A DNA stretch of 64,000 bases from Choanephora cucurbitarum. Taxonomy: Eukaryota > Mucoromycota > Mucoromycetes > Mucorales > Choanephoraceae. Positions 43,201-49,428 of this stretch are shown piece by piece. The DNA lies in contig JAIWNI010000011.1 in NCBI GenBank assembly GCA_025331435.1, positions 124,001 through 188,000 on the forward strand, written 5' to 3'. The position numbers were made by a program, and so were the translations under genes. The notes beneath the pieces are model-generated. The model was not told where the DNA came from, did no database searches, and saw only the letters and a program-made list of their open reading frames with translations. The stretch's first letter is position 1. Every line of letters starts with the position of its first letter.

Positions 43201-43966
43201 AAAACAAAGATGATAGTTTATTGATATGCGCTCTTTATATAATTGGATGCCTCTAATTGTTTTGCCCTTAAATACAACTACTCTGAGCGACAGGCATCCT
43301 TAACGAAAACTTAACGAAAACTTATCGAAAATCAACTCTGTGTTAACGCGTTACAAAAAGCTTTTGAGTCTTCAATGCCAAAAATCTAAGACTGGTTGAA
43401 TTAAACAAAAGCAAGCCTAGTAATTTATTCTTCGATTCGAACGAAAAAGAGCATCTACTACCCTCTTGATGGGACATACTATTATATCACCCTCTAATCA
43501 TCTGCAAGCCTTTTCGGATTTTGTAAACACGTAGAAAAGCTTACAAATGATAGGTAGGTAGTGAAAAAGCTACGCTTTTGCATTACAACAGGCTAACATA
43601 TATAAGCCCTGCTTTACGTTTTCTTTGTACGCCAAACGAAGCCAATTTCAGCTGCGATTGGCAACAGCTACAGCCAACTTAATCTCTATTGATTTTTTGC
43701 AGGACTTTCCATATTCGGACACAGCAGAACGCGTTTTTGGAAATGGTCGCGTATACAAAAAAAAAGAAAAAAGGGAGATGAGGTTCGAATGAAGAAATCC
43801 TACTGTAGTTGTTGACGACAATCTGACTATTGCAAACCGTCTCATTCTAACCACAAATCATAGATTTTTTTCTTTATATTTATCTTTATAGTCATCTCAT
43901 ATTGACAACTTGTTTACCGATCACATATGGCGTAGCTTCAAATTATTTTCTTTCTTAAAAAAAAAA
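40244..43966. other. Gene-poor stretch upstream of the transposon, about 3.7 kb
   Basis: No complete gene found. It begins with the 5' flank of the glycosyltransferase/lyase gene. Frames at 41257-41643 (128 codons, plus) and 42531-42752 (minus) are longer than expected by chance in AT-rich DNA but show no recognisable family. A short tandem of cttaacgaaaa-like units lies near 43303-43330. Near 43599-43606 a TATATAAG box precedes a 54-codon plus-strand frame (43628-43792). The last few hundred bases were probably the original promoter of the CK1-like gene at 47837. Confidence 0.45.
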
Positions 43967-44062
43967 GACTAAAGTTCCGCGCACCAAGGTTTCGCACCAA
44001 GGTTTTGTCAAATGCCTACGTAGGCATTTGAACAGCCAATAATATTTGAGCATTTTTGGTGC
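43967..44062 (+). repeat. Left terminal inverted repeat of MULE
   Basis: 96 bp, identical to the reverse complement of 47693-47788. It contains a 13-base direct repeat (cgcaccaaggttt, twice in tandem with one base between copies) and a perfect 22-bp palindrome at 44009-44030 (core cctacgtagg). These are plausible transposase binding sites. Confidence 0.95.
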
Positions 44063-44125
44063 CTGAAGTTTTTTTTTTTTGCTTTTTCGAATTAAACCTT
44101 TTTTTCTTTCTGTTATTTTTCTATT

Positions 44126-47027
44126 ATGAACTCTCAAGTATCTTTAGACAACTCTCAACTTACCGTTACCGATTCTCAAATAAGACGAATGACGACTAGT
44201 GACACTGTCACTTGTGACTGGGATGATTTTAGTGATGCTGAATCGCTTGTTTTTGACGAAACTAGAGAGGAAAGCGAATACGAAGTTGAATCAACCGTCG
44301 TTGCCGAATCCTCCAACAACATGAAGGAAGAATTTGGAAAAGTCTTCTTTGTAGGTGCCAAGTTCAGAAGCTCAGACGAGGTTCGTGATAAAGCACAAGC
44401 TTTGGGCAAAGAGTTCAATTGCCCAATCACCACTGCTAGAAGTAGCAAGAACAGCTACATTGTTTTGCAATGTAGACATGGCGGTACTTACAGAAAGGCC
44501 AAGAAAGTCGAAGCCGACGCTGAGAGAGAAGAAAGCTCCGAGAGTATGTGCTGCATAGAGAATTATAAACGAAATGGAGTAGCTGAATCAAGCGATTGAC
44601 TGGACTCCTTTTTCATAGATACGAACGAGAGTGGACGACGCTATCAATCTGGTAGAAAGCGATGCCCTTTGCGCATCTATGCGTCTGTAGGACGCGATAC
44701 TGAGAGGCCCTGGGAGGTTCGCCAAGTCACTCTTGAGCATAACCATGCTCTTAGCAGTGACTTGTCAACCTATTCGGTCTTCAGGAAGCTTCTCCCCGAA
44801 GATTTCGAAGTGGCTTGTAGCATGATGAAGAAAGGAGAAACTCCTAAAAGTGTTTTGAAGGTAAGATGAGCTTCTTTATGCTATATATTTTTTATACAGC
44901 TATGTTCATTTCGACGATGTTGCATTTGAGAGATGAATATCTAGTTGATGGAATGTCTTTTAACACAAAATAAAAGAGGAAATAAAGAATAAGTGATTTG
45001 ATTTCATATCCTTTTCTCGTCTTGTATTATTTTTGCTGCTTCAGACCAGATTCTTTTACTTTTGAATTCGATAGAATTCCATTTTATTCTTTCATTTGTC
45101 AATACTAATATACGCACATCTTACTAGTTGTTGGTAGAAAATCAAGTTGATAATGGCATCACATTAAGCGATTTGCATAACATTCAGCAACGCTTCTGCA
45201 ATGACCAGTTTTCTGGTATGGCTGAGTTCATCTCAGATTTGGAGCAAACTGGACATCAAGTACGTACCAGAGTGGACAGTGATGATAAGGTGAATGCTGT
45301 CTTCTTCATGCATGAGCATGGAAGGGATGAGCTCAGACGACTCCCTGAAAGTGTCATCATTGATGCAACATACAAGACCAACAGCCACCGCATGGTGTTG
45401 CTCAACATTGTTGTTGCAGGCACAGTAGCTTCAGAGTATCGCCGAAGCCAACTTGCAACCATCCATGTTGCTGGATGTTGGATGAGAAAGGAGACTACCG
45501 AGTCTTATGAGTGGGCCATGAAGCAACTGAGAAGCATTGCCTGGCCTAGTGGAACTGATCCCAGTCTTCTTCCTGACAACTTTGTCACTGATAAGGATCA
45601 AGCCTTGATGAATGCTATTAAGGTTGTGTTTCCTGAGTCAAGACACATTTTGTGTTATGTGCACATTGTGCACAACTTTTTGAAAAGACTCATCAAAAAC
45701 ATGAGCAAGAAAGTTCAGCTTGGTAATTTAATATTGAATTTTCTTATGAGTAAAGACAACTTATTTTTGCATTGCTCTTCTTTGTAGACAAAGAAAGCCG
45801 CCCTTTGCTGGAAAAGCGATTCAAAGCTATTATTCACAAGATAGCTTTTCAATCCAACACCAAGGAAGCATTGATAGGCTTCAAGAATGAGTATGATGCA
45901 TTTGTCTCTCAAGATAATCTTTGCGTTGATAAAGGCAAAGAAATGAAAACATATCTTGACAGGTAATGTGAATGAAAATAAGTTTTAGAGCATTTAGCAT
46001 GAAATTTTCTCACGTTCAAACTTGTATAGCATGATGGCCTTTCGTCGTCATTGGGTTGGCTATTATGTCAACACCTACATGCATATGGGCAATCGCACGT
46101 CCAACAGAGTCGAAAGTACTCACAGTGGCATTAAACGCCACAACAAGACATCTTCTGGTTCGCTTGGCTTGGTGACCAAAAAAATTCGCGAATGGGTTGA
46201 AGGAAGAGTGAGTTAATTGTTACAATTGTGTCTGGATCAAGTTTGGTTAATTCGCGTTATTTTCAAATACAGGAAAGCTACAGAAACAGACAAACTGTGC
46301 GTGAGTCTTTGTTTGAAACGATCTTGAAGGACAAGACTGGCCATGAAATTGATGACAAGATGAGCCAACTGAGAGGCAGGATTACCAGCTTTGCCTTTGA
46401 TCGTATTCGTTTCGAATACATCAATTTGATGGACAACAAAGCTGATCCTGATCATGTCTCTCATGTGGATCCTACTACGGGTAAATGCCTTTGCGAATTG
46501 CGTAGAGCATACCGTCTTCCTTGCAGACATCGAATTGCGAGATATGATGGTCCTATTCCATTAGCTGCCGTTCACAGAAGATGGCACATTATGTATCAAA
46601 ATGGCAGAGGTTAGTAGATTAGAGTACAGAGTATCAAACAAATGTCTAATATCCTTGTTTTAAAGTTGCTACTATTGCTGAAATGACAAATGCCAGCAAG
46701 GAGCATAATCATGAAGAGCATGAAGTCAGAAAGCCTGTAGAGGTACAGTTGCAGAAGCTGCAATATATCAATGCAGACTTAAGAACTGAGGGAGAAAGAA
46801 TCGGCTTAGAGGATGAGCTTAGAGCAATCATAAGCAAATATTCTGATGACAAGCAAGTTGAGCGCATCCTTCCTCCTCCAATAGTATATGACATCAAAGG
46901 TCGTCCTAAAAACACTACCCGAGAAAAAATTGCTTTGGAGAGAGAGATGGACAAAATCGCTCAACTTGCCAAACAAGAAAAAGCAAGTCAAAAAGAAGTT
47001 GCCCAAGGTATTGATGCCAAAAACTGA
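44126..47027 (+). CDS. MULE transposase (FAR1-like zinc, DDE core, SWIM finger)
   Basis: Seven exons (44126-44543, 44619-44860, 45128-45722, 45788-45962, 46030-46207, 46273-46609, 46666-47027) give 768 residues, all in phase. An acidic N terminus leads to a FAR1-type zinc region: VLQCRHGGTYR, then after the intron KRCPLRIYAS and the EHNHAL ligand pair. The transposase core supplies the expected acids in VIIDATYKTN (about residue 299), FVTDKDQALM (about 375) and NRVESTHSG (about 505), with ILCYVHIVHN between. A SWIM zinc finger CLCELRRAYRLPCRH lies near 608-622. The tail carries GRPKNTTREK, a common MULE ending. It catalyses excision and insertion of the element. The last exon may instead splice to the OTU frame (see next entry). 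Confidence 0.92.
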
Positions 47028-47045
47028 AATTAACATAGACACTAA

Positions 47046-47621
47046 ATGGTTGAAGTAGTCCGCCTAGCCATTCCAATTCCCAAAGGATTGAGTGCCAAGC
47101 AAGTGACAGGCCACTTCAATCCTTCGCCTGATGGTAATTGTGGCTATAGAGCAATTGCCTATGCCATTTTTGATAATGAAGCCAGTTTTGGCAATGTCAA
47201 GCATGAGATGCTTTTATGCTTGAGAAAGAATGAACAATTCTACCGCCAAGTTTTTGGTAGCTCTCCCTCCGCCTCTGAAGTTCTCTCTGGTACATTTGAA
47301 AGTATCCAAAGCAAGCTTAGCAACGACGCTTCAGCAGGTATAACTGATAATTGGTTCCAATTTCCCGAAATGGTCCAATTAGCAGCAGATACCTTTAGCA
47401 GAGCTATTGCTTGCTATACGCCCGACAATCAAAGTACTACATTCGTTCCTTATTTTTCCCCTCCCTTCCCTGTTCGCCCTATTCCTTTGCAACTCTACAA
47501 CAGTCATTTTTACATTGTAGAGCTCAAGCCCAACTCGAAGCCAAGATGGCCAAGAACTTACCCAGGACACTCCTTTAACTGCAAAAGACACTCTTTAGAA
47601 GACTTTTCGCTCATTTATTAA
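47046..47621 (+). CDS. OTU-family cysteine protease domain carried by the MULE
   Basis: 191-codon frame within the transposon. Catalytic features of an OTU deubiquitinase are intact: PSPDGNCGYRAIAYAIF with Asp-Gly-Asn-Cys (Cys at about 32), and the His of LYNSHFYIVEL (about 154). As an independent gene it would start at the ATG 18 bases after the transposase stop, which is tight for a eukaryotic gene. Alternatively a GT-AG intron at 47008-47058 (51 bases) removes the transposase stop and joins ...EVAQ to VRLAIPIPKG in frame, giving a 949-residue transposase-OTU fusion. The intron length and frame fit the other introns here, so fusion is favoured. The role may be processing or protection from ubiquitin-dependent turnover; this is inference. 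Confidence 0.85.
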   Translation: MVEVVRLAIPIPKGLSAKQVTGHFNPSPDGNCGYRAIAYAIFDNEASFGNVKHEMLLCLRKNEQFYRQVFGSSPSASEVLSGTFESIQSKLSNDASAGITDNWFQFPEMVQLAADTFSRAIACYTPDNQSTTFVPYFSPPFPVRPIPLQLYNSHFYIVELKPNSKPRWPRTYPGHSFNCKRHSLEDFSLIY

Positions 47622-47692
47622 CAAAAAACATATGATATGAATAAATTTTGCCACCTTTAGTTTCCTTTTTTTACAATTTATTTTGAATTCAT

Positions 47693-47788
47693 GCACCAAA
47701 AATGCTCAAATATTATTGGCTGTTCAAATGCCTACGTAGGCATTTGACAAAACCTTGGTGCGAAACCTTGGTGCGCGGAACTTTAGTC
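47693..47788 (-). repeat. Right terminal inverted repeat of MULE
   Basis: Exact inverted copy of 43967-44062, with its palindrome at 47725-47746. It ends TTTAGTC and is followed by nine A residues, then the short remaining leader of the CK1-like gene. Confidence 0.95.
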
Positions 47789-47836
47789 AAAAAAAAAGAC
47801 CTGAAAGCTGGTTTTCTTTTTTTTTAACCCTATATT

Positions 47837-49428
47837 ATGCACTTGCCCAAGAAGATTTGTGACCAAAGATACACTCTTGGAGAAAGACTGGGTAGTGGTT
47901 CATTTGGTACCATTTACAAAGGTGAGAGTTATCTCAATGTCTCAATACATAGTATAACTCATCTCCTATTTAAGTTACCGAAATAACAACCAACAAAGAA
48001 TATGCAGCTAAGATAGAAGACAAGAGCGAACATTCGCGTCAGATAAAAGAAGAGCGCGAAGTCTACAAAAGTCTGCCTTCCGATGCAACAGGCTATTTGA
48101 AGATGAAAGAGTATTGGTCGATTCCCAGTTCAATGTATCGATGTCTCATCTTGACACTTGTTGGCAAAAACATCGAGAGCTTGATGAAATCACAACCTAA
48201 AAGAAAACTTTCGTTAAAGACAGTGCTTATGTTAGGCATTCAATTAGTAAGTGTCTTGGGAGAAAGAAAAAAAAAGCATACTACTATTCTATAACTAACA
48301 ATTGCTGTAGATAGATCGTGTTGAGACACTTCATAATGCTGGTAAGATATAAACTCAAGTTTCTTCTTTGCTATATCTAATATCTTCAATAGGCTTTGTT
48401 CATCGCGATATTAAACCAGACAATCTTGCTATGGGCTTAGGCGATGATTCACCCACATTGTTCATGCTCGATCTCGGTCTTGGAAAACGATATATATATG
48501 GCAATAAGCATATCGATCTTCGAAAGGATAAAGGCCTGACTGGTACAGCCCGATATGCGAGTATTCGTTCACATAAAGGTTATGGTAAAGTGTCTACAAT
48601 AGTGTCTTCTCAAAACTACCTGTCACGAATAGACCTAACATGTTAAATTATTAGAACTTTCACGACGAGATGATATGGAATCAGTTGCTTATGTCTTGAT
48701 CTATCTACTAAGAGGAAACCTTCCTTGGCAAGGTTATCACTCGATGTATGGAAAATCAAAATACAGGCAAATCTTAGAATCCAAACTAAGCACATCCACC
48801 AGTACACTCTGTTTCTCGATGGATCCTGTCTTTGGGGAGTTCTTGGATTATACCAGAAAACTCGATTTTACCGAAAAGCCTGATTACGATAAATGGCGAA
48901 ATACCTTTAAGTCACTGATGGAAAAGAAGAATTATGAGTTTGATTATATCTATTGTTGGACTGTAAAGTATTTGCTTTTTGCTTTTTTTCTTCTAAAGAG
49001 ACTCATTAGTTTCTTCTTTGTATAAATAGTTACCTACCGATAAGGCTTATCTAGACAAAGAGGCAGCTAAGGAAAAAGCAAGACAAGAATTAATTAAGGC
49101 AAAAGAAGCCAGACTTAGAAAGCTAGCAGCAGAGAAGAAGCGAAAGGAGAAATTGAAGAAGAGAAGAGTCTGGGCACCCAACTTCAATGATGATCTGTTT
49201 CCTTCAACTATGCCACTACAGCAACGTCGTGCGCTTATTGCTCAGCATATGCAAAAGGGACCTTTGTTCAGTAGTAGTCCTTCAGCAGAAATGCCATTAG
49301 AGACATTCAATCCTTTCTATACAGCATATCAGCCTAATCCATATCTAAATCCATACGGTTTACCACCTATTAACCCTATGCCTATACACCCAATTACGCA
49401 TGATCCCAATTCAACGTATTTGTTCTAA
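47837..49428 (+). CDS. Casein kinase 1-like protein kinase
   Basis: Six exons (47837-47921, 47975-48246, 48311-48341, 48393-48584, 48655-48962, 49030-49428) give 428 residues. CK1-clan features: glycine loop LGSGSFGTIYKG, catalytic Lys in YAAKIE, HRDIKPDNLAMG, GTARYASIRSHKGYELSRRDDMES and LRGNLPWQGY. Two things are odd. The metal-binding triad reads DLG (LDLGLGKRY) instead of DFG. The C-terminal tail has a very basic Lys/Arg/Glu helix (about residues 305-330) and a Pro/Asn/Tyr-rich end. The kinase core otherwise looks functional. The third exon is 31 bases. The MULE ends 48 bases before its ATG, so little of the native leader remains in place. Confidence 0.9.

Follow-up and report, generated by a model that had tools for sequence, protein, structure and literature searches.

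A complete, recently transposed and probably autonomous Mutator-like transposon in Choanephora cucurbitarum

The DNA analysed here (the window) is a stretch of 64,000 nucleotides from contig JAIWNI010000011.1 of Choanephora cucurbitarum. It contains, at positions 43967-47788, a complete Mutator-like element (MULE) of 3,822 bp, referred to below as copy C13. Judged from its sequence, it is very probably a complete, recently transposed and probably autonomous DNA transposon. The initial annotation had proposed a complete and recent MULE that could well be an active autonomous element, and this is supported by dispersed copies, by target sites of their own, by paralogous element-free sites for one copy (C112), and by selection on the protein; present activity is a prediction only. 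The element has the DDE domain and long terminal inverted repeats of a MULE, and its target-site duplication falls within the range of 8-11 bp given for MULEs in the available part of PMC6446971. The family appears to belong to an already known kind, its notable features being the apparent targeting of A/T runs with an 8-bp duplication, and an OTU-type tail under selection.

The terminal arms (43967-44067 and 47688-47788) form a 101-nt inverted repeat with 99% complementarity. The outermost 96 nt are free of mismatches, which confirms the perfect 96-bp repeats described initially. A perfect inverted match of 96 bp within less than 5 kb is not expected to arise by chance. Each arm carries the same perfect palindrome of 24 bp (TCAAATGCCTACGTAGGCATTTGA), adjoined on its outer side by a repeated CACCAAGGTTT motif. 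A search of the same genome (33.4 Mb in 357 contigs) for the 96-bp repeat and for full copies gave near-identical dispersed copies and 20 end sequences, a lower bound for the family. The 20-bp core of the palindrome, with up to two mismatches, occurs at 20 places genome-wide, and these are the same 20 ends; a control search of the same genome with the reversed core gave no match. Among 19 aligned ends the palindrome is perfect in eight, has 18 to 22 of its 24 positions symmetric in nine, and is lost in two (C314 right and C157 a); no compensatory change was found in any of them. The palindrome thus appears to be kept in recent copies, the function of this candidate site being not proven.

The number of CACCAAGGTTT motifs per end varies between one and two, a difference of 13 bp, as is seen at window positions 43967-44007, in C302, and in C308 (left) and C356 (right). 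The two ends of C356 themselves differ in this number. Four ends appear to be relics: both of those at C14, and the only ones at C182 and C295. The whole-genome search with the palindrome core revealed no swarm of short copies of the kind expected for small non-autonomous derivatives, and scans of the window for bacterial-type promoters and against Rfam gave nothing useful.

The transposase exons had been claimed to join in phase. This holds: eight exons with GT/AG borders, lying between 44126 and 47621, give a predicted message of 949 codons without a stop. The MULE domain matches the Pfam model PF10551 at 5.9e-19 (68.8 bits against a cut-off of 27.6). The residues reported for the other functions could all be located by motif. 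By eye, we take D299, D375 and E505 to be the catalytic acids, C608, C610, C620 and H622 to form the SWIM finger, C116, C155, H180 and H182 to be FAR1-type ligands, and the DGNC motif at 787-790, with H912, to belong to the OTU domain. The Pfam match to FAR1 is below the cut-off (0.013, 16.7 bits against 28.1, with 27.7 bits for a relative, P0013), as is the match to Otubain (0.028). These two assignments therefore rest on motifs, on relatives and, for OTU, on the predicted fold; an OTU fold with catalytic Cys and His is found on motif and predicted fold.

Table 1. Features of the element and its surroundings, in window positions, and aligned copies of the family
Feature	Position	Strand	Remark
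Left target-site duplication (AAAAAAAA)	43959..43966	.	read as 8 bp from two other copies; length in the window unmeasurable (A-run flank)
Left terminal inverted repeat	43967..44062	+	96 bp, perfect; 44063-44067 extends it with one mismatch
Palindrome in left repeat	44008..44031	.	24 bp, perfect; candidate transposase site
Exon 1	44126..44543	+	transposase start, N-terminal FAR1-like region
Exon 2	44619..44860	+	remaining FAR1-like zinc ligands
Exon 3	45128..45722	+	MULE DDE domain, D299 and D375
Exon 4	45788..45962	+	
Exon 5	46030..46207	+	catalytic E505
Exon 6	46273..46609	+	SWIM zinc finger
Exon 7	46666..47007	+	linker
Intron 7 (predicted)	47008..47058	+	51 nt, three in-frame stops
Exon 8	47059..47621	+	OTU-type cysteine protease domain
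Right terminal inverted repeat	47693..47788	-	96 bp, perfect
Palindrome in right repeat	47724..47747	.	identical to left
Right target-site duplication (AAAAAAAA)	47789..47796	.	
Start codon of casein-kinase-1-like gene	47837..47839	+	outside the element, 48 bp past its right end
Copy C332			1/3,822 differences from window copy
Copy C292			2/3,821, plus poly-T length change
Copy C343			18/3,821
Copy C112			64/3,820
Copy C302			102/3,781
Copy C356			120/3,805
Copy C314			76/2,642; 1.2-kb deletion
Copy C308			157/3,768
Copy C182			183/2,875; truncated

Ten copies were aligned, including the window copy, which is the reference for all differences (Table 1). The whole message is open in five of them (C13, C332, C292, C343 and C302). 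In C112 a frameshift close to the end of the OTU domain leads to a stop at 935. Remoter relatives of the family are found at C157, C295, C354, C317, C212 and C179.

The copies lie in unrelated surroundings. The 5-kb flanks of six copies gave no match between copies at E 1e-5, the sole match, 40 bp long, being internal to the flanks of C332. For the window copy, 1 kb of right-hand flank (the side searched) has no match in the genome other than itself. When the flanks of C112 are joined without the element, they match C46, C327 and C288 at 92%, straight across the join, with a difference of one A in an A-run. By this comparison, these are paralogous sites that lack the element; no element-free site was found in the genome for the joined flanks of C356. 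The near-identical copies and the paralogous element-free sites together point to past mobility. It is worth adding that C327:148-317 and C288:148-317 are an identical stretch of 170 bases at equal distance from the contig start, with agreement at 353 of the first 450 positions, possibly a subtelomeric repeat.

Target sites were surveyed in the eight copies that retain at least part of both ends. Five are bordered by perfect repeats: A9 at C13 and C332, T8 at C292, AAAATAAA at C343 and TAAAAAAA at C112. C356 has T7, and at C302 and C314 no border repeat was seen by eye. The duplication is 8 bp long at C343 and C112, and at least 8 bp at C13, C332 and C292. The initial annotation had noted that the flanking A-runs allow a 9-bp duplication. 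At the window site this is correct, since ten A close the left flank and nine A open the right, which makes the length unreadable there; however, a 9-bp duplication is ruled out by the ninth base, which differs at C343 and C112, and the true length is 8 bp. All five perfect sites, which belong to the five youngest insertions, consist of A in seven or more of their eight positions, or of T in seven or more. The frequency of 8-mers with this composition is 1.9% in the remainder of the window, 1.3% in the 5-kb flanks of the five copies, and 3.2% when only the closest 500 bp of these flanks are counted. At the highest of these rates, five of five would occur by chance with a probability of 3e-8, in a test that was chosen after the sites had been seen. 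The placement in A/T runs is far from chance.

The ratio of non-synonymous to synonymous substitution (dN/dS) was calculated between copies, skipping codons with gaps or stops and ignoring frameshifts (the one at the OTU end of C112 among them; C314 and C182 are partial). Between the window copy and C112 it is 0.23 (transposase 0.27, OTU 0.18). Against C302, C308, C314, C356 and C182 the values are 0.32, 0.27, 0.22, 0.44 and 0.59, and against C343 0.45, on few changes. Nine other pairs of copies range from 0.26 to 0.67, and those of them above 0.5 include broken copies. These comparisons indicate that transposase and OTU tail are under purifying selection, and the pattern is consistent with active source copies being selected and copies decaying once inserted.

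Could the near-identity of the copies have arisen without transposition, by segmental duplication, as haplotype contigs or by assembly error? The division of the assembly into 357 contigs gives some room for this, but we regard it as very improbable: the flanks of the copies are unrelated, the five youngest copies are each bordered by their own direct repeats, C112 has paralogous sites without the element, and the right flank of the window copy is unique. Assembly or haplotype duplication is rejected on the distinct target repeats, the unrelated flanks and this unique flank. A recently silenced relic is a more serious alternative, albeit an unlikely one. Such an element would have moved lately, as in the reading we prefer, and would now be inert, its high identity reflecting too little time for decay. 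The low copy number of the family (at least 20 end sequences) and the broken message in five of the ten aligned copies are what a relic would lead one to expect; on the other hand, there are copies with one and two differences in 3.8 kb whose messages are open. The broken messages are also among the points that count against the reading we prefer. C332 and C292 each have one amino-acid change and no silent change relative to the window copy, and function is thus not proven. Models of the OTU structure had low confidence, with a mean predicted local distance difference test (pLDDT) of 47.4, rising to 57.7 after a second alignment. Foldseek with this model gave no match at E 0.001, the best match of the OTU query alone in PDB was at 0.17, and Pfam OTU models never exceeded the cut-off, either with this query or with nine relatives. 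Finally, the splicing of intron 7 and the fusion of transposase and OTU are predictions.

If intron 7 is left unspliced, two proteins result: a transposase of 768 residues, terminated by the stop at 47027, and an independent OTU protein of 191 residues from an open reading frame starting at the ATG at 47046. The two parts are separated by one or more in-frame stops in all nine copies where this region is present; the ATG is in place; and two database proteins, P0002 (191 residues, 97%) and P0008, start at it, as mechanically called reading frames would. We nevertheless consider two proteins rather improbable. Splicing of the predicted 51-nt GT...AG intron would take out the stops and preserve the frame, and its borders are kept in nine of nine copies; the annotated Mucor proteins P0014, P0017 and P0018 have transposase and OTU in a single chain; and a second MULE family in this genome appears to encode both parts in one frame, with no intron between them. 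Probably, the OTU part forms a tail at the C-terminus of the transposase and is joined to it across a short intron. It is unlikely to be passively captured cargo, because its dN/dS is low (against the window copy 0.18 in C112, 0.28 in C302, 0.36 in C356 and 0.41 in C308), and because OTU is present in relatives and in the second family. Among nine relatives scanned, four have a Pfam OTU or otubain match at E 0.1 or better, none of them above the cut-off.

A homology search with the whole protein (4,845 candidates) found one protein, from citrus, and a later search with the core (5,022 candidates) found 17. The fungal relatives found are from Mucor, Rhizopus and Phycomyces, and the remaining named ones are from plants. 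The early-diverging fungal host noted earlier therefore fits. The Mucor relatives (P0014 and P0018 of M. lusitanicus, P0006 of M. circinelloides, and P0010-P0013, P0016 and P0017 of M. saturninus) have 34-57% identity in local alignments, with the FAR1-like N-terminus, DDE, SWIM and OTU parts in the same order where present. They differ in that their annotated models are partial or rearranged, and were compared as proteins only. The plant MULE/FAR1-related proteins P0023 (Bidens) and P0021 (Glycine) are very divergent, with 23-24% identity. The end of P0023 resembles otubain as well (Pfam 9e-4, below the cut-off), and a search with P0023 gave no match in PDB at E 1.

Several described systems share features with the element. 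The MULE-Mucorales group has 10-bp duplications, 40-bp ends, a SWIM finger, one open reading frame and no further motif in Table 1 of Dupeyron et al. 2019 (PMC6446971). It resembles the element in its Mucoromycota host, SWIM finger and single reading frame but, by description, is set apart from it by the 8-bp duplication, 96-bp ends and OTU tail found here. The same table lists MuDR-6_HM of Hydra (group 14), a MULE with an Ovarian Tumour gene, which by description differs in its cnidarian host and in having no terminal repeats listed. That entry was the only one found in the available parts of the open-licence literature in a search for OTU domains in fungal MULEs; other mentions of OTU there meant operational taxonomic unit, or the protease of Helentrons. 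As described in the accessible parts of the sources, Spectre of aphids also has 8-bp duplications but a C2H2 finger (PMC6446971), and Muta1 of mosquito has 8- or 9-bp duplications, but carries a FLYWCH finger and does not appear to prefer particular targets (PMC5225508). MuTAnT of Medicago strongly prefers simple AT-rich repeats, in its case (TA)n, with 9-nt duplications where readable (PMC4486113). A few active MULEs are named in the available text of PMC5225508, the fungal Hop among them, and expressed MULEs are described in Rhizophagus in that of PMC8647823.

MULEs are abundant in this 33-Mb genome, with at least 87 matches to the MULE domain, at least 81 of them over the Pfam cut-off and several located in frames of 700-1,006 residues that contain no stop. 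At C279:252600-255900 lies a second family, apparently intronless, with an open frame of 980 residues and, by eye, SWIM-like and OTU-like motifs. Matches of equal domain score at C155, C246, C303 and C337 (five in all) suggest that it is another young family. The statement that few fungal MULEs are this intact is unsupported, given this 980-residue frame and the number of domain matches.

For genes near the insertions, seven of the listed open reading frames were scanned, three of them truncated at their end and two shortened so as to begin with a start codon. The gene to the right of the window copy, which we take to be a casein kinase 1 (CK1), gave a match below the cut-off to the Pfam kinase model (4e-4) with one exon piece, and its promoter region is probably interrupted by the element. 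C343 is inserted about 30 bp upstream of an apparent start codon of a short, secreted-looking protein. These two cases are only a hint of promoter targeting.

On the basis of these observations, we propose that the FAR1-like N-terminus would attach to the long ends, with the palindrome and the repeated CACCAAGGTTT motif as its possible binding sites, and that the DDE domain would excise the element and reinsert it, preferentially in A/T runs, by cuts staggered by 8 bp. In fungi, A/T runs are often open promoter DNA. The OTU tail would most likely trim ubiquitin off the transposase itself or a host partner. More tentatively, the fused OTU deubiquitinase may belong to the working parts, kept by selection, of a MULE lineage that is widespread (in Mucorales, and possibly in plants and Hydra). 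Its role in transposition itself would then be to stabilise the transposase, or to remove ubiquitin from chromatin at nucleosome-poor A/T-run targets. With few copies, young members that are intact, defined ends and target sites that have been measured, this family lends itself naturally to tests of how fungal MULEs transpose, and the selected OTU tail raises a testable question, namely whether a transposon may bring along a deubiquitinase of its own for its movement.
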